This document shows, in pieces, positions 2,161 to 43,133 of a stretch of 43,411 nt of DNA (within the stretch, counting starts at the first letter, position 1; every line of letters starts with the position of its first letter). A model generated the notes under the pieces. The model had not been told where the DNA came from. It searched no databases and worked only from the letters and a program-made list of their open reading frames with translations. The stretch comes from Clostridium brassicae (lineage in GTDB: Bacteria > Bacillota > Clostridia > Clostridiales > Clostridiaceae): assembly GCF_026738875.1 (NCBI RefSeq), contig NZ_JAPQFJ010000025.1:1-43411 (forward strand), written 5' to 3'. The translations under genes were made by a program, and so were the position numbers.

Positions 2161-2978
2161 TGATTAATGCATTTATACAATATGCCTTTATACGACATGC
2201 TGTATTTGGAATTATTCTTGCAAGCATAGTGTGTGGAATAATTGGTACGATTATAATAGAAAAAAAATTAGTAATGATGAGTGGTGGAATAGCTCATACT
2301 GCTTTTGGCGGGATAGGTATGGGGTATTTTTTAGGGATAGAACCTATCATAGGAGCACTTATTTTTTCTGTTTTATCCTCACTTGGAATTGCAAAAATAA
2401 ATAGAGGAAGTAATACTAATTCAGATACACTAACAGCGATGTTTTGGTCCCTTGGAATGGCTCTCGGAATATTATTTATAGCTTTTACACCAGGGTATCC
2501 TCCTGATATGACATCTTATTTATTTGGAGATGTTTTAAAGGTTTCAAAGTTGGATATAAGAGTTATGATTGTGATTAATATATTAGTAGTGTCTACAATC
2601 ACAATGTTTTTTAATTATTTCAAATTTTACTTATTTGATGAGGAATTTACCAGTATTTTAGGAATTAATACTATTTTTTTGGAGCATGTATTATATATTC
2701 TCATCGCTTGCACAATAGTGGTTTTAATAAGGGTTGTAGGAATAATATTAGTAATAGCATTACTTACTGTTCCACCAGCTATTGCAAAACAATTTACTTA
2801 TGATCTAAAGAGAATTATGATTATATCTATAATTTTAGGGGCTGTATTTGGGTTAATAGGATTAGTATTTTCTTATTATTTTAATATAGCTTCAGGAGCA
2901 TCTATAATTATTTTTGCTGTAGGAAGTTATATGATTATTTATCTTATAAATCATGTTTTGAAAAAATGTCATAGCTGA
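2160..2978 (+). CDS. znuB: ABC-3 family metal transporter permease
   Basis: This 272-residue integral membrane protein has about eight hydrophobic segments and the ABC-3 hallmarks MSGGIAHTAFGGIGMGYF near residues 40-57 and LLTVPPAIAKQ near 201-211. It is the membrane channel partner of the ATPase encoded immediately upstream. Its ATG overlaps the stop of that gene, with GGAGG six nt before it. A typical system also has a surface lipoprotein that captures the metal; none is encoded in this window, so it must be supplied from elsewhere. The stop codon is followed at once by copy A of the intergenic repeat, whose hairpin at 3121-3157 ends both this operon and the convergent murC. Confidence 0.9.
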   Translation: MINAFIQYAFIRHAVFGIILASIVCGIIGTIIIEKKLVMMSGGIAHTAFGGIGMGYFLGIEPIIGALIFSVLSSLGIAKINRGSNTNSDTLTAMFWSLGMALGILFIAFTPGYPPDMTSYLFGDVLKVSKLDIRVMIVINILVVSTITMFFNYFKFYLFDEEFTSILGINTIFLEHVLYILIACTIVVLIRVVGIILVIALLTVPPAIAKQFTYDLKRIMIISIILGAVFGLIGLVFSYYFNIASGASIIIFAVGSYMIIYLINHVLKKCHS

Positions 2979-3212
2979 ATAATATTACGATATAATGAAT
3001 AAGGTTCAGAAAGAGGTTTCTTAAAATATATGTATGTATCTATTACACCTTCGGTATGCATAGACATGTTTGTGAAGAGTATGAAGAGTAAATTTTTAAA
3101 ATTTACTAAAACTAAAAGCTAAAACCTTAACGAAAATAGATTTTTCGTTAAGGTTTTATTTTTTACCTAATTTAAGGATTTTCTAATCCAAGAAAGGAAA
3201 TTACTATATTGT
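2979..3212 (+). repeat. intergenic repeat element, copy A
   Basis: This non-coding stretch starts directly after the znuB stop with ATAATATTA. It shares several blocks with the copies at 27244 and 42706: a start of the type AATAATATTA...TAATGA(A/G)TA, a block TTTCT..AAATATATGTA...CTATTA.ACCTTC (shared with copy C), a long hairpin, and a tail of the type TTTA.TTAA..A.AGATTTTCT.A followed by an AAGAAA-rich stretch. No reading frame is conserved. It may be a mobile non-coding repeat or a conserved RNA element that carries a terminator. Confidence 0.6.
3121..3163. terminator. bidirectional terminator between znuB and murC
   Basis: A perfect 16-bp stem (AAAACCTTAACGAAAA at 3121-3136 against 3142-3157) with a 5-nt loop is followed by TTTTATTTTTT on the plus strand and by a T-rich stretch on the minus strand. 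It serves two convergent genes. It is also the hairpin module of repeat copy A. Confidence 0.85.
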
Positions 3213-6354: not shown

Positions 6355-7725
6355 TTGTACAAATGTTCTGTTATACTTGCTGCAGGAAAAGGTAAAAGAA
6401 TGAAAACAAAGTTACCGAAGGTGTTACATAAAGTTTGTGGCAAAGAATTGGTTAATCATGTTATAGATACTTTAAAAAATTGCGACATAAAAGATATAAA
6501 TGTAGTTATTGGAAACGGAGCTGAAGAAGTAAAAAGAGCTACAGAAAATAGAAACGTTTATTATTCATTACAGACAGAACAGTTAGGAACAGGGCATGCT
6601 CTCATTTGTTCTAAGGATTTTTTTAAGGACAAGAAGGGAATTTTAACTGTTTTTACTGGAGATGCTCCTCTTATAACAGAGGAAAGTGTTAAAAAACTTA
6701 TGGAGTTTCATGTGAAAGGAAACTATAAAGCAACTATACTTACTTCTTTAGTAGAAGACGCTACTGGATATGGAAGAATAATAAGAAGTGATAGTGGAGA
6801 AGTAGAAAAGATAGTTGAACATAAAGATTGTAGTGAAGAAGAATTAAAGGTTAATGAAATAAATTCAGGAATGTACTGTTTTGACATAGAAGAACTTGTT
6901 GCTAATCTAGATAAGTTAAATAATAATAATTGTCAAGGAGAATATTATTTAACTGATGTTATAGAAATATTAAAGAATGAAAATCACAAAGTTGGAGCTA
7001 TAGATATTAATGCTGATGAAATTAAGGGTGTTAACTCAAGAATTCAATTAGCTGAAGCCGAAGAAATAATGAGAAATAGGATAAATAAGAAGCACATGGA
7101 AAATGGTGTTACAATTATAGATCCTAAGACCACATACATAGGAAATGAAGTAGAAATAGGGGAAGATACAATAATATATCCTGGAAATGTAATTGAAGGG
7201 AAAACAATTATAAAGGGAGATTGTATTCTTTATCCTAATTCAAGAATAAAAGATAGTATAATTGAAGTTGGAGTTACAATTCAAAGTTCGGTTATATTAG
7301 AAAGCTGTATTGGAGAAAATACTACCGTTGGTCCATTTGCTTATGTTAGGCCAGAAAGCCAAATTGGTAAAAACGTAAGGATTGGAGATTTCGTTGAAAT
7401 TAAAAAATCTAAGATAGACGATAACACAAAAGTATCTCACCTAACATATATAGGAGATGCAGAAGTGGGAAGTGGATGCAATTTTGGATGTGGAACTGTA
7501 GTTGTTAACTATGATGGCAAACATAAGAATAAGACTATAATAGGAGATAATTCTTTTATAGGATGCAATGTTAACTTAGTTTCACCAGTAGAGGTTGAAG
7601 ATAATACTTATATAGCAGCTGGTTCAACCATAACTAAAAAAGTTCCTAGTGGAGCTTTAGCTGTTGCTAGAGCAAAGCAAGTTAATAAAGAAGGTTGGAT
7701 GGAAAAAAGCGGACTAAAAAAGTAA
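6355..7725 (+). CDS. glmU: bifunctional N-acetylglucosamine-1-phosphate uridyltransferase / glucosamine-1-phosphate acetyltransferase
   Basis: GlmU makes UDP-GlcNAc for peptidoglycan by acetylating glucosamine-1-phosphate and coupling it to UTP. The N-terminal pyrophosphorylase domain shows [15 protein letters not shown] at residues 8-22. The C-terminal half is a left-handed beta-helix of hexapeptide repeats, ending with the family segments [26 protein letters not shown] and [11 protein letters not shown] prefer a TTG start at 6355, because AAGAGGTG is 6 nt upstream and the protein then begins [11 protein letters not shown] as in other clostridia. A GTG at 6346 is in frame but overlaps the ribosome binding site. 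The length is 456 residues. prs follows after 39 nt, probably in the same transcript. Confidence 0.95.
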
Positions 7726-8721: not shown

Positions 8722-8827
8722 TAAAAAATGTTGTGATCCAATATTATTTTAGGTATTATGCAAAAGGTACTAGGGAAGCTAGACTTTCTTTCTGATATTA
8801 GAAAAGCTTTGAATTAAATAAAAGAAT

Positions 8828-8870
8828 AAGACCATAATGAAAAATTAATTTTTCATTATGGTCTTTGTTG
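8828..8870 (+). terminator. terminator after prs, same hairpin design as the repeats
   Basis: A perfect 17-bp stem (AAGACCATAATGAAAAA at 8828-8844 against 8849-8865, loop TTAA) is followed by TTTGTTGTTT. The core ATGAAAA/TTTTCAT is identical to that of the hairpins at 27304 and 42899, while the outer base pairs differ. The flanking blocks of repeat copies A-C are weak or missing here. The rest of the 8722-9097 gap is AT-rich; I found no clear promoter for the response regulator. Confidence 0.75.
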
Positions 8871-9097
8871 TTTCCTTAAGCTATTATGTCATAATATTAT
8901 TAAATTGTAACTTTTATTTAAATTTATTGTTTTAAAGGTTTAAAATATTATCAAATATGATAGAGTATTATTAGATAATTGTGCATATGATAATATAACA
9001 AAAATACACTTATAAATAGTATATTAGTATTATAGATGAGAAAACTAATTTTGTGTAAGTTATATTTTAATATTGTATAAATTTAGGGGGTAAGGTT

Positions 9098-24846: not shown

Positions 24847-27243
24847 ATGCAGTACGGAGCAGATATATTTCCTTACAAAAGGATAAGGAAAACTAATAAA
24901 GATAAAAAAAATTTAAAAAGTATTGAGCAGTATGGTATATTAAATAATTTTGCTTATTTTTTAATATGTTTATTAGTAAGTAGAGTAATTATGCTGAATT
25001 TAGAAAATTCAATGGCTCCTTTTGGAGTAGCATTTTTAATAGTTATTTCCCTATATAAAAAGGAGTTTTTTTTTATTTCTGTTTGTGGTACCATAGCTGG
25101 ATACTTATCTATATATAATAAATTAAACAATTTACCTGGATATTTGATTATAGTTGGAACTATAGCTATTTCAGCCTATATGTTAGAAGAAAAGTCAAAG
25201 AACACAAAACTATTAGTTATATTTTGTACTATATTCATTGAGTTAATTGCAAGTGAATTTTGGATACGAAGTTTAACTTTTAAAGTTGCATTTTTATCTG
25301 CATTTCTTCAAATGATTTCCATTATCCCAGTATATTTTATTCTTGAACACTCTATAATATGCATAAATAAATTTAAGACAAAACATCTATTTAGTAGCGA
25401 AGAAGTTATAAGCATGTCCATTATATTTGCGTTAGTTATATCTGGAACATGGGGAATTACTATAGCCAAGATTTCTATAATGAATATTTTAGCTCTAGGA
25501 TTTATATTAACACTTAGTTATATAAATGGAAGTACGGTGGGGGCTACAAGTGGAATTGCCATTGGAGCAATAACAGGAATGTGTTCTAATAATATACTTG
25601 TTTATGTAAGTGTTTATGGCTTGTGCGGATTTTTTTCAGGACTTTTTAAAGAAATAGGCAAATGGTTGACGGGAGTTACATATATAATAACATTCCTAAT
25701 ACTAATACTCTATTCTAATATAAAATCAGAATTTAATTTTATAGAGGTTATAATTGCTTCAGGTGCTTTTATTGCCATACCAAATGAAGTTTACAACAGG
25801 TTAAATTTAGAATTGGACTGGGAAAAAAAGCAAGAGTATTTGAATAAAAGTATAGCATCTAATATTAAAAGTTTAATTGTTGATAGGTTAGACAGTTTTT
25901 CCGAAGTTTTATATGGTATGTCAAATACTCTTGAGGAACTATCAGATAATGACAAATTATTAATGAAGAGTAAGAGTAGTGGATTAATTGAGAATCTTGC
26001 TGATAGAGTTTGTGGCAATTGTAGTATGAATACTACATGTTGGAAAAAAGAGATATATTGTACTTATGCTGCTTTTGGAGAACTTATACAGAATTGTCAA
26101 GAGCAAAGAAGAAAGATTATACCTAAAGAAATAGAAAGAAAATGTGTAAAGAGGACATTGCTTCTAAAAAACACTGAAGATATTGTTAATAATTATATGG
26201 TAAAGGAAATGTGGAGAGAAAGACAGAGTGAAGGTAGAAAAATTTTATCTGAACAAATAAACAGTATGGCTGATTCTTTTAAGGAGATAATGAAAGAGTT
26301 TAATTGTGATATTAAAATAAACACGGATATTGAGAAAAAGCTTAGAAAGGTTTTGGGAGATCAAAATATTAAATATGATGATATATTCTGTTTTGAAAAT
26401 AAAAATAACAGATTGGTAATAAAGATGACTTTAAAAGCTTGTGGGGGTACTCAACTTTGTGTAAAGAAAATATTACCTTTTATAAACGAAGTTGTAGGTA
26501 AACTTATGTGTGTTAGCGATGAGGGATGTGTTATTAATCCAAAAACAAGTGAGTGTAATATTACTTTTGAAGAAACTCCTAAATATTATATCGCATCTTA
26601 TGCCAACAAATTATGTAAAGAAGGAGAAAAATATAGTGGAGACAGTTATAGTTTTGGTAAGATTCTTCAGGGTAATTATATGTGTATTATAAGTGATGGA
26701 ATGGGTTCGGGACCTGAAGCTGGAAGAGAAAGTAAGGCTGCTATTGATATGGTAGAAAAGTTTATTAATTCGGGAATAAGTAAAATTAAAGCCGTAGATG
26801 CAGTCAATACAATAATGACTTTAAGATTTCCTCAAGATGAAAAATTTTCAACATTAGACTTATGTGATGTGGATTTGTACTCGGGGGATGTGAATTTTAT
26901 GAAGATAGGATCTGTTTGTAGTTTTATAAAATCTGGCACAAAAGTTGAAGTGATAAGGTCTAAGACTTTGCCAATAGGAGTTTTGGATAAAGTAGATGTG
27001 GATGTAGCAAACAAGAAAGTTAAAAATGGGGATTTTATTATTATGTTAAGTGATGGTGTTGTGGATTATGACATAGATAATACAGGTAATATTGATTGGG
27101 TAGTGGATTATTTACAAAAAAACAATACTAATAATCCTAAAGAATTGGTTGATGGACTGATTAATAAAGCTAAGGAATTAAGTGGAGGCAAAGTTAGAGA
27201 TGACATGACTGCCATAGTTTCAAAAGTTTATAGTTTATATTAG
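24847..27243 (+). CDS. spoIIE: stage II sporulation protein E, SpoIIE phosphatase
   Basis: SpoIIE is a membrane-bound PP2C-type phosphatase that dephosphorylates SpoIIAA to free SigF in the forespore, and it associates with the polar septum. The 798-residue protein has a cytoplasmic N-terminus, about ten hydrophobic segments (about 35-310), a linker with a cysteine cluster (VCGNCSMNTTCWKK) and the phosphatase domain (about 590-798). Metal-binding aspartates lie in IISDGMGSGPEAG near 612 and MLSDGVVDYD near 734. A GGGGGG-rich ribosome binding site precedes the ATG. It lies between the tRNA block and tilS. Repeat copy B begins right at its stop codon. Confidence 0.95.
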   Translation: MQYGADIFPYKRIRKTNKDKKNLKSIEQYGILNNFAYFLICLLVSRVIMLNLENSMAPFGVAFLIVISLYKKEFFFISVCGTIAGYLSIYNKLNNLPGYLIIVGTIAISAYMLEEKSKNTKLLVIFCTIFIELIASEFWIRSLTFKVAFLSAFLQMISIIPVYFILEHSIICINKFKTKHLFSSEEVISMSIIFALVISGTWGITIAKISIMNILALGFILTLSYINGSTVGATSGIAIGAITGMCSNNILVYVSVYGLCGFFSGLFKEIGKWLTGVTYIITFLILILYSNIKSEFNFIEVIIASGAFIAIPNEVYNRLNLELDWEKKQEYLNKSIASNIKSLIVDRLDSFSEVLYGMSNTLEELSDNDKLLMKSKSSGLIENLADRVCGNCSMNTTCWKKEIYCTYAAFGELIQNCQEQRRKIIPKEIERKCVKRTLLLKNTEDIVNNYMVKEMWRERQSEGRKILSEQINSMADSFKEIMKEFNCDIKINTDIEKKLRKVLGDQNIKYDDIFCFENKNNRLVIKMTLKACGGTQLCVKKILPFINEVVGKLMCVSDEGCVINPKTSECNITFEETPKYYIASYANKLCKEGEKYSGDSYSFGKILQGNYMCIISDGMGSGPEAGRESKAAIDMVEKFINSGISKIKAVDAVNTIMTLRFPQDEKFSTLDLCDVDLYSGDVNFMKIGSVCSFIKSGTKVEVIRSKTLPIGVLDKVDVDVANKKVKNGDFIIMLSDGVVDYDIDNTGNIDWVVDYLQKNNTNNPKELVDGLINKAKELSGGKVRDDMTAIVSKVYSLY

Positions 27244-27395
27244 AATAATATTATAATTTAATGAATAGTGACAGCATTACCTCTTTTGTTTAGGATAATG
27301 ATAAGGATCACAATGAAAAAATAAGTTTTCATTGTGATCCTATCATTTTACTTAACCTAAAGATTTTCTCATACTAAAAGAAAATTTCCTCTGAG
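27244..27395 (+). repeat. intergenic repeat element, copy B (short)
   Basis: This copy starts directly after the spoIIE stop with AATAATATTATAATTTAATGAATA and lacks the middle part found in copies A and C. It contains the hairpin at 27304 and the tail TTTTACTTAACCTAAAGATTTTCT followed by AAAAGAAAATT, shared with the copies at 2979 and 42706. No reading frame is conserved. Confidence 0.6.
27304..27350 (+). terminator. terminator after spoIIE (repeat copy B hairpin)
   Basis: AGGATCACAATGAAAA at 27304-27319 pairs perfectly with 27326-27341 around a 6-nt loop and is followed by ATCATTTTA, a weak T tail. Confidence 0.65.
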
Positions 27396-27493
27396 AAAAC
27401 TTATAACTGTGAATTATTAATCTAAAAAATGTTACGTTATAATAGTTTTCTAAAGTGTATTTAAAATAAATTAATAATTTAAAATGACTTCTG

Positions 27494-41328: not shown

Positions 41329-42705
41329 ATGAAAAATGATTTTAGGGATTTTAAAAAGTTTATAAAAAATAAAAAAGTTGCTGTAGTTGGTATAGGGATA
41401 AGTAACATTCCTTTAATAAATTTTCTTTATGAATTAGAAGCTAAAGTAACAGCGTTTGATAAAAAAGATGAAAAAAGCCTTGGAAAAGTAGGAGAAGATT
41501 TTAAGAAAAAAGGTATAAATTTAGAGCTAGGAGAAAACTATCTAGATAATCTAGTTGGATTTGATGTTATATTTAAGACTCCATCTATGAGAATAGATAA
41601 CCCTGCGCTTGTTAAAGCTAAACAAAATGGAACGTATATAACATCTGAAATGGAGGAGTTTGTAAAATATTGTCCTGGAAAAGTTTTTGGTGTTACTGGA
41701 AGTGATGGAAAAACAACAACTACTACGTTGGTTCATAATATGTTGAAGATTGAAGGATATAAAACTTGGGTAGGAGGAAATATCGGTAATCCCTTGTTTT
41801 CTAAAATAGAAGAAATGAATGTTGAAGATAAAGTAGTTTTGGAATTATCTAGTTTTCAACTAATGACAATGAATGTTCATATTGATTGTGCATTGATAAC
41901 AAATATAACGCCTAATCATCTAGACATGCACAAGGGAATGGATGAGTATGTGGAAGCTAAAAAAAATATTTTTAAAGTTCAATCGAAAGAGGATTTATTG
42001 GTTTTAAATAGAGATAATCGACTTACTAACTCTATGGTGAGTGAAGCAAAAGGAAGATATATGCAGTTTAGCATAAAGGAGAAAATACAAGATGGTGCTT
42101 ATTTTGAAGACGATAAGCTTATATTAAGAGGCGTAGAAGTTTGTAAATTACAGGATATAAAATTAATGGGAATGCATAATGTTGAAAATTTATTAGCAGC
42201 TTTTTGTACAGTTTCTGATGATGTAAGTATAGAAAGCATGAAAAAAGTTGCAACTACTTTTACCGGAGTAGAGCATAGATGTGAATTTGTGAGAGAAATA
42301 GATGGTGTTAGATATTACAATGATTCCATAGCTTCAAGTCCAACAAGAACACTGGCAGGATTAAATGCGTTTAGTCAACCAGTAATATTAATAGCAGGAG
42401 GATATGATAAAAAAATACCTTTTGACCCTCTTGCTGAACAGGGATATAGTAAGATAAAAGCTTTAGTATTAGTAGGTATTACTAAAGAAAAAATAAAAGC
42501 AGCTTTTGACAAAGTTATTGAGGAGAAATCAATAAAATTACCTATAGTCTTGACAGAAGATTTTGAAGAGGCTGTGTATAAAGCCAAAGAATTAGCTCAA
42601 AAAGGAGATATAGTGACTTTGTCTCCTGCATGTGCCAGTTTTGATTTATTTCCTAACTTTGAGGTGAGGGGAAATAAATTTAAAGAAATAGTAAATGAAC
42701 TATAG
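41329..42705 (+). CDS. murD: UDP-N-acetylmuramoyl-L-alanine--D-glutamate ligase
   Basis: MurD adds D-glutamate to UDP-MurNAc-Ala with ATP. The 458-residue protein starts at the ATG 8 nt after TTGGAGG. It has an N-terminal domain with [17 protein letters not shown], the ATP loop [13 protein letters not shown] near 124-136, [24 protein letters not shown], and the C-terminal HRCEF...[13 protein letters not shown]. The latter stands where many MurD proteins have NDSKATN; I believe this is usual for clostridial MurD. It lies alone just upstream of an rRNA operon, away from other cell-wall genes except the distant murC. Repeat copy C begins at its stop codon. Confidence 0.93.
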
Positions 42706-42990
42706 AATAATATTATGAAGTAATGAGTAACGGCATAGGAATAGGATTTTCTAAATATATGTAGTTACCTATTAAACCTTCATTACATGAAGAAGTACTA
42801 AAGGCGTAATTGTTACTTCAAAGTTTAACTAAATAAGTACTAACTCCATTGAGATACCGATCGCAAAGTTTATTGGCTTTTTGTGTAGATCAGCAGTAAA
42901 GCCCTTAATGAAAAATTAGCTTTTCATTAAGGGCTTATTATTTTATTTAACTTATAGATTTTCTAACAAAATAAAGAAAATTCTCATTTC
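42706..42990 (+). repeat. intergenic repeat element, copy C (longest)
   Basis: This copy starts directly after the murD stop with AATAATATTATGAAGTAATGAGTAA. It has the TTTTCTAAATATATGTA..CCTATTAAACCTTC block seen in copy A, a longer middle part, the hairpin at 42899 and the tail TTTTATTTAACTTATAGATTTTCTAA followed by AAAGAAAATT. It carries no open frame of note. Confidence 0.6.
42899..42945 (+). terminator. terminator after murD (repeat copy C hairpin)
   Basis: AAGCCCTTAATGAAAA at 42899-42914 pairs perfectly with 42921-42936 around ATTAGC, followed by ATTATTTTATTT. It isolates murD from the rRNA operon. Confidence 0.75.
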
Positions 42991-43133
42991 CTGGCATCTA
43001 GTATATAGCATCTGACTCTCATAATAATGTTTCGTAGTCTACTCTTCCTTGTGTGTCAATACAAGAAATATGGAGAAAAAACGAGAAATAAATAGAAATA
43101 AGAATATAAGAATTAATAATAAACTTTCATCAG

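Follow-up and report, generated by a model that had tools for sequence, protein, structure and literature searches.

A MITE-like repeat family on gene ends of Clostridium brassicae with terminator-like hairpins, a TwoAYGGAY RNA core and probable exchange of residents between stable sites

SPRITE, BOX and RUP of Streptococcus pneumoniae are small non-autonomous repeats; SPRITE is terminator-like, enriched near the 3' ends of genes and thought to have been co-opted as a terminator, and BOX is modular (PMC3049150). Miniature elements (MITEs) of the ERIC/Correia type have inverted repeats, contain no gene, are mostly intergenic and yield structured transcripts, and bacterial MITEs are typically shorter than 500 bp (PMC10969869). 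Other palindromic sequences in intergenic DNA are the REP/REPIN repeats associated with RAYT, and the RecV-type switches of C. difficile occur in both orientations as a result of site-specific inversion. The TwoAYGGAY RNA (Rfam family RF01731) has a structure with GGA loops (PMC2864571, PMC4333381) and was predicted by Gardner and Eldai to be a CsrA-binding small RNA (PMC4333381). A link between TwoAYGGAY and mobile elements is not mentioned in the passages of PMC2864571 (main article), PMC11701678 and PMC4333381 that were considered, and the papers retrieved on MITEs in Clostridium describe no such element as judged by titles and the beginnings of abstracts. The claim to novelty made here is limited to this: these literature searches did not show the link.

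The window, which is the complete stretch of 43,411 nucleotides analyzed here, is contig 18 of the 4.10 Mb C. brassicae draft genome (71 contigs). An initial annotation had described three copies of an intergenic element (A, B and C), and the alignment bears out the 5' block, hairpin and 3' block common to all three as well as the further block shared by A and C. A fourth copy (D), in reverse orientation, has to be added, as ribose-phosphate pyrophosphokinase (prs) is also followed by the element. The start of each copy had been placed exactly at a stop codon; the stop codon is indeed there, and by analogy with full copies found elsewhere in the genome the starts are corrected by one or two bases into the stop codon itself, while comparison with a sister species (genome G006) by eye extends B and C to the approximate ends given in Table 1. 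The names znuB, spoIIE and murD for the preceding genes hold at the family level (ABC-3 permease, SpoIIE and MurD-like ligase). These flanking genes differ, which rules out gene duplication as the source of the copies, as had been proposed. Searches of the host genome with copy C and with a full copy yielded 101 and 149 matching stretches, respectively, the best match of copy C other than itself having an E-value of 2e-31, and similarity by chance is therefore excluded. Clustering both searches gave about 42 places among the matches listed, a count that is approximate because copies split by contig ends may be counted twice.

Table 1. Positions of element copies and hairpins within the window.
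Feature	Position	Strand	Remarks
Copy A	2977..3212	+	after znuB-like permease gene; internal deletion, decayed 3' end; alignment
Hairpin of A	3120..3158	+	17 pairs, then TTTTTTACCT; both strands score; 2 found, 0.1 expected
Copy D	8723..8902	-	reversed, after prs; matches 8785-8866 and 8782-8872; ends by eye
Hairpin of D	8828..8865	-	17 pairs; both strands score; 2 found, 0.0 expected
Copy B	27243..27450	+	after spoIIE; strongly deleted; alignment
Hairpin of B	27304..27341	+	16 pairs; 1 found, 0.0 expected
5' end of C (TAGAATAATAT)	42703..42713	+	carries the murD stop codon; end shared by full copies
Copy C	42705..43034	+	after murD; TwoAYGGAY core lost; alignment
Hairpin of C	42899..42936	+	16 pairs; 1 found, 0.2 expected

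The architecture of the intact element was deduced from the 15 copies in the host genome for which both ends could be defined. These full copies are 402-993 bp long and all have inverted-repeat ends, as MITEs do. Their 5' end is mostly TAGAATAATRTTRYGAC, a palindrome of about 30 bp forms their 3' end and closes with an inverted copy of the 5' end, and many of the junctions flank TA. The longest open reading frame per copy spans only 24-55 amino acids, so that the family is multicopy and free of coding genes, again as in MITEs. One longer copy on contig 2 (L010, 1500-2600) contains a small membrane-protein-like reading frame as possible cargo. Near the 3' end a long hairpin is followed by a run of T residues. 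Scanning one full copy for terminator-like sites returned 6 against 0.4 expected; for the main hairpin a score was obtained on each strand, the T tract being better on the plus strand of the element. The stem differs among copies and, by eye, both arms change together. A TwoAYGGAY core is present on the opposite strand in 11 of the 15 full copies (the exceptions being L021, L027, L033 and L035). Relative to these copies, A-D are internally deleted; all four retained the hairpin and lost the core.

The position at stop codons was surveyed with open reading frames of at least 240 nt that end near either end of the 15 full copies. In 17 of 20 such gene ends the stop codon lies between -6 and +3 of the first base of the element, and the remaining three lie at -15, -81 and +34. 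Ten of the 17 stop codons are wholly inside the element, two overlap its border and five lie 2-3 bases before it. Altogether, 14 of the 15 full copies touch at least one gene end, and three (L011, L017 and L022) each touch two convergent genes; the exception, L023, misses the length threshold, and by eye its left neighbor also ends in TAG at the junction. Reading from the 5' end of the element, a stop codon is encountered in every frame within 28 bases in all 15 copies, which explains why copies seemed to start exactly at a stop codon: the stop codon at the junction is for the most part supplied by the element. When reading begins at the 3' end, an early stop is usual in two frames, and the third stays open for longer, up to 100 bases. 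Gene ends abut left and right element ends about equally (7 versus 10), and the same-direction layout of A-C is thus not general.

The joined 130-bp flanks of the 15 full copies were searched in the sister species G006 and in the relatives G005 and G003, and A-D were compared separately by eye. G006 contains all left flanks and, with one exception, the right flanks (14 of 15), at 86-98% identity; the right flank of L016 is missing and that of L019 was partly found, 2.2 kb off. Flank identity reaches to 0-10 bases from the left junction at all 15 sites, and at 13 sites it ends no more than 2 bases short of the right junction. The search for empty sites that the initial annotation had suggested yielded none among these 15 in G006, where no flank pair is joined and every site is occupied. 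All 15 copies of the host genome have the 5'-end signature on the left, whereas in G006 it lies on the left in seven residents (L011, L012, L014, L015, L016, L021 and L024) and on the right in seven others (L017, L018, L022, L023, L027, L033 and L035). The resident of L019, which was not typed by signature, has a 380-bp match in reverse orientation with 87% identity. Eight of 15 residents are thus reversed, or nine of 19 when A, B and D (same orientation) and C (reversed) are included; as the host genome is a draft of 71 contigs, some of these reversals could be assembly errors. For L027 and L035 the reversal is not visible from the sum of matched bases alone.

The residents themselves do not follow their sites. 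After the right boundaries of the G006 residents of L016 and L019 had been set by hand, mean identity between residents was 85.2% for matching and 85.9% for non-matching sites. By bit score, the resident of the true site ranked between 3 and 15 among 15 and never first; by identity it was first in 2 of 15 cases. The normalized rank of the true site was 0.54 (0 being best), which corresponds to random ranking. Plain descent would give rank 1, and as matching residents are no closer than others, the sites persist while their contents differ and are turned round. This pattern suggests that sites are stable while residents have been exchanged and flipped.

Of the four loci of the window, the znuB and prs sites are occupied in G006 in the same orientation, the prs copy being longer there. 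The znuB-site copy of G006 is split by a gene named by eye as alanine-racemase-like (L122, approximately 6380-7450), which is absent from the host genome. At murD, the element of G006 is turned the other way, a different palindrome-ended element is present in G003 and G005, and G001, G002, G004 and G007 have none. At spoIIE, G006 is occupied; G001-G005 and G007 have a short spacer carrying a hairpin instead and are unoccupied. Next to spoIIE, G003 and G005 have a terminator-like hairpin that has no counterpart beside the element in the host genome or G006, and by eye the hairpin of the element appears to have replaced it. Neither of the two outcomes named in the initial annotation as refuting was seen: the similarity greatly exceeds chance, and while the sister species has its sites filled, the more distant relatives compared at spoIIE lack the element, and structural conservation is evident. 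In G005, by eye, another palindrome-ended element is found at both junctions of the L018 site and at the left junction of the L027 site, and L035 is occupied by G005's own TwoAYGGAY element. The G003 sites corresponding to L012, L014, L016, L017, L024 and L035 show spacers or ordinary-looking terminators, and one G003 match at L035 spans the junction, fitting an unoccupied site. The other palindrome-ended family of G003 and G005 has CAGTAACCAGTAGCC-like arms around a terminator-like hairpin (L116, L117, L143, L149, L150 and L154) and occupies several of the gene-end sites that are used by the element in the host genome.

With Rfam's own thresholds, only tRNAs and a T-box were detected in the window and only one FMN riboswitch in ten element loci of the host genome. 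A permissive scan detected TwoAYGGAY on the strand opposite to that of the annotated copies (38.3 bits, E-value 2e-4). Against the RF01731 cut-off of 43, one copy in G006 reaches 43.9 bits and the best copy of the host genome stays below at 39.9; the window copies have no core by Rfam scan and alignment. Among 225 genomes of the order, RF01731 was found at E-values of at most 0.001 in 21, in 19 of these above the cut-off, and it was absent from all 14 control genomes. The Rfam model under-detects the family: it gave 5 matches at this E-value in the host genome compared to cores in 18 loci with our own profile, two of which are cut by contig ends.

In the genomes that carry RF01731, all 28 distinct cores carry GGA in the loop of the first hairpin, the arms of which form 7.86 of 8 pairs on average, compared to 4.91 for shuffled arms (maximum 5.57 in 1000 shuffles). 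The second, shorter GGA hairpin was detected in 12 of 30 cores by a simple finder that requires four contiguous pairs. From 63 profile matches in the host genome and G006, only ungapped rows on the GGA strand were counted, which left 29 distinct rows. In these the GGA columns are conserved at 93-100%, and conservation of the hairpin stems averages 80%; at several stem pairs both sides have changed. ATGGAC or ACGGAC was found in 24 of the 29 first loops and 21 of the 29 second loops, in keeping with the two-hairpin motif of TwoAYGGAY. Wobble pairs do not discriminate between the two strands as the transcribed one (18 GU versus 15 AC after removal of one near-constant U-G pair). The gene csrA is present in 20 of 21 RF01731 carriers compared to 166 of 204 non-carriers; the one carrier lacking it (G021) is a genome of 64% completeness. 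GGA-containing hairpin loops and csrA, the combination looked for in a CsrA-binding RNA, thus occur in the same genomes, and this co-occurrence is weakly suggestive of, and compatible with, a CsrA role.

TwoAYGGAY was also identified as the core of mobile elements in other genera. A pattern scan of named genomes returned 33 loci in Clostridium sp. KNHs214, Haloimpatiens lingqiaonensis P8956 and Clostridium sp. CS001. Four of them (L187, L197, L217 and L219) were dropped because one or both end repeats are missing. The other 29 (27 in KNHs214, two in Haloimpatiens) are 313 bp long (one 314) with ends like TGATTATCCCACAA, which are unlike those of the C. brassicae element, and as a rule the copies are not located on stop codons. 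An exact direct repeat of 5-6 bp at the junctions of 24 of these 29, compared to a mean of 1.75 and at most 7 in 2000 rounds of shuffled flanks, reveals a target site duplication as in MITEs. In KNHs214, 194 and 181 such ends were counted versus one each for a reversed control pattern. These 375 ends in 4.3 Mb (G191; e.g., L221-L231) belong, by pattern, to a nested family of MITEs that is very large and comes in sizes of 54, 58, 84, 167-172, 188 and 313 bp. Eleven versions of 54-188 bp have the same ends and no core, and a direct repeat of 5-6 bp was found in nine of the ten with distinct flanks, which indicates that the core is not needed for spread.

No transposase was recognized by eye in 12 further stretches around matches to the element or to similar terminal inverted repeats, and a non-exhaustive search for a transposase with the TAGAATAATGTTGCG-type ends of the C. 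brassicae element found none. The single RAYT-type gene of the host genome is flanked by other repeats, and mobilization as a RAYT-dependent REP is ruled out on this basis; the gene (L181, 1200-2650, contig 6) encodes a 316-amino acid Y1 transposase, RAYT-like by length, between GGGACGGTTAA-type repeats. Spread on known plasmids or phages was rejected, as a full copy has no match there, and an exact 30-base pattern taken from the 5' portion of the element gave no match in the viral and genome collections, from which near records may have been left out. A group I intron or IStron was dropped after no such family appeared in the Rfam scans.

Two possibilities had been put forward for the window copies, a mobile repeat that targets or mimics 3' ends and a conserved RNA attached to transcript ends. 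The former is supported by the inverted-repeat ends, the number of places, the lack of a long reading frame and the position on stop codons, and mimicry comes close, given that the end of the element supplies the stop codon and its hairpin resembles a terminator. The conserved RNA does exist, on the other strand, but not in the window: A-C have a terminator-like hairpin and no longer contain the RNA core, and a 3'-end regulatory RNA was rejected for these copies. We consider it probable that A-D belong to a family of MITE-like, non-autonomous terminator cassettes with stable sites and exchanged residents. Such a cassette has inverted-repeat ends, one of them the long palindrome, a terminator-like hairpin and, if intact, an internal TwoAYGGAY. 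On a stop codon it would probably terminate transcription of the abutting gene, a role suggested by the hairpin with its T run, the missing neighboring terminator at spoIIE and the retention of the hairpin in A-D. Over time one copy may take the place of another at a site, in whichever orientation; the simplest agent would be an enzyme that works on the end repeats and is indifferent to orientation. In old copies, A-D among them, the core has been lost and a hairpin kept that the host would use, and transcribed TwoAYGGAY hairpins are predicted to bind CsrA. One observation against the cassettes is that the better T tract of reversed copies is oriented away from the gene that they adjoin. In L016, A and D, this hairpin scores in both directions. 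The interpretation is weakest where it depends on the draft assembly of the host genome, on an enzyme that was not found and on the function of the RNA, which is a prediction.

Fixed sites with exchanged contents could also result from ancestral insertions that were homogenized by RecA-type gene conversion and flipped via inverted repeats, since extended stretches of similarity and an internal inverted repeat are common to the copies. However, the reversal of whole residents from end to end, seen at 8 of 15 sites, needs crossovers within the short end repeats, and the different family at the L018 and L027 junctions of G005 (by eye) is unlike a conversion of like by like; we regard this account as doubtful. 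About equally doubtful is the view that hot spots at gene ends received their insertions independently in each lineage. Random orientation, unlike residents and the other family at some junctions of G003 and G005 would follow naturally, but all 15 sites, chosen as filled in the host genome, would have to be filled in G006 as well, and none is empty. That a recombinase flips cassettes in place, giving phase-variable termination between neighboring genes, agrees with reversal of about half of the residents (8 of 15, plus C) and with flanks conserved up to the junction. In-place inversion alone predicts that residents of matching sites are closest, and as this was not observed, such switches are very unlikely. 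It also seems quite unlikely that the TwoAYGGAY hairpins are a DNA part required for transposition and not RNA cargo. In mobile elements they do occupy the apex of a long foldback, but the core-less versions of KNHs214 have spread with the same ends, and the GGA loops persist in genera with unlike ends. A bolder extension of the cassettes, which we think unlikely though not as remote as these last two, holds that gene ends of the genus are lasting docking sites for orientation-neutral terminator cassettes that a palindrome-end recombinase swaps genome-wide and that double as a distributed CsrA sponge. If this were true, a mobile family would have taken over termination and part of global RNA regulation.

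The data provide a genomic home for TwoAYGGAY, an RNA family proposed among the first CsrA-binding RNAs outside the Gammaproteobacteria, and describe a mobile family with persisting sites and differing, turned-round residents. While TwoAYGGAY as a CsrA-binding RNA was already in print, the mobile setting is the addition made here. A cassette mover lacking orientation preference and the titration of CsrA by a mobile repeat become testable.

In kind, the C. brassicae element is ordinary: it is MITE-like with terminator hairpins, and its nearest counterparts are SPRITE and BOX of pneumococcus. The pneumococcal repeats are likewise small and non-autonomous, but SPRITE ends are short AAAA/TTTT sequences, and neither a GGA two-hairpin core nor a fixed site with flipped residents appears for SPRITE, BOX or RUP in the passages of PMC3049150 considered. 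The element shares the features of ERIC/Correia-type MITEs listed above, although its full copies reach beyond the typical size, and the main text of the review (PMC10969869), as far as it was covered, is free of the terms 'stop codon', 'Clostridi' and 'CsrA'. In contrast to REP sequences, its palindromes do not accompany the RAYT-type gene of its genome. The RecV-type switches share the two orientations but are individual and control particular genes, and in the material considered resident exchange between their sites is not mentioned. The TwoAYGGAY RNA has the same structure here as in its descriptions, which in the parts considered (PMC2864571, PMC4333381) do not place it in a mobile element, whereas in C. 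brassicae and KNHs214 it is the core of one. Two features are unusual: sites are shared with the sister species while their residents appear exchanged and flipped, and the cargo is a structured RNA.
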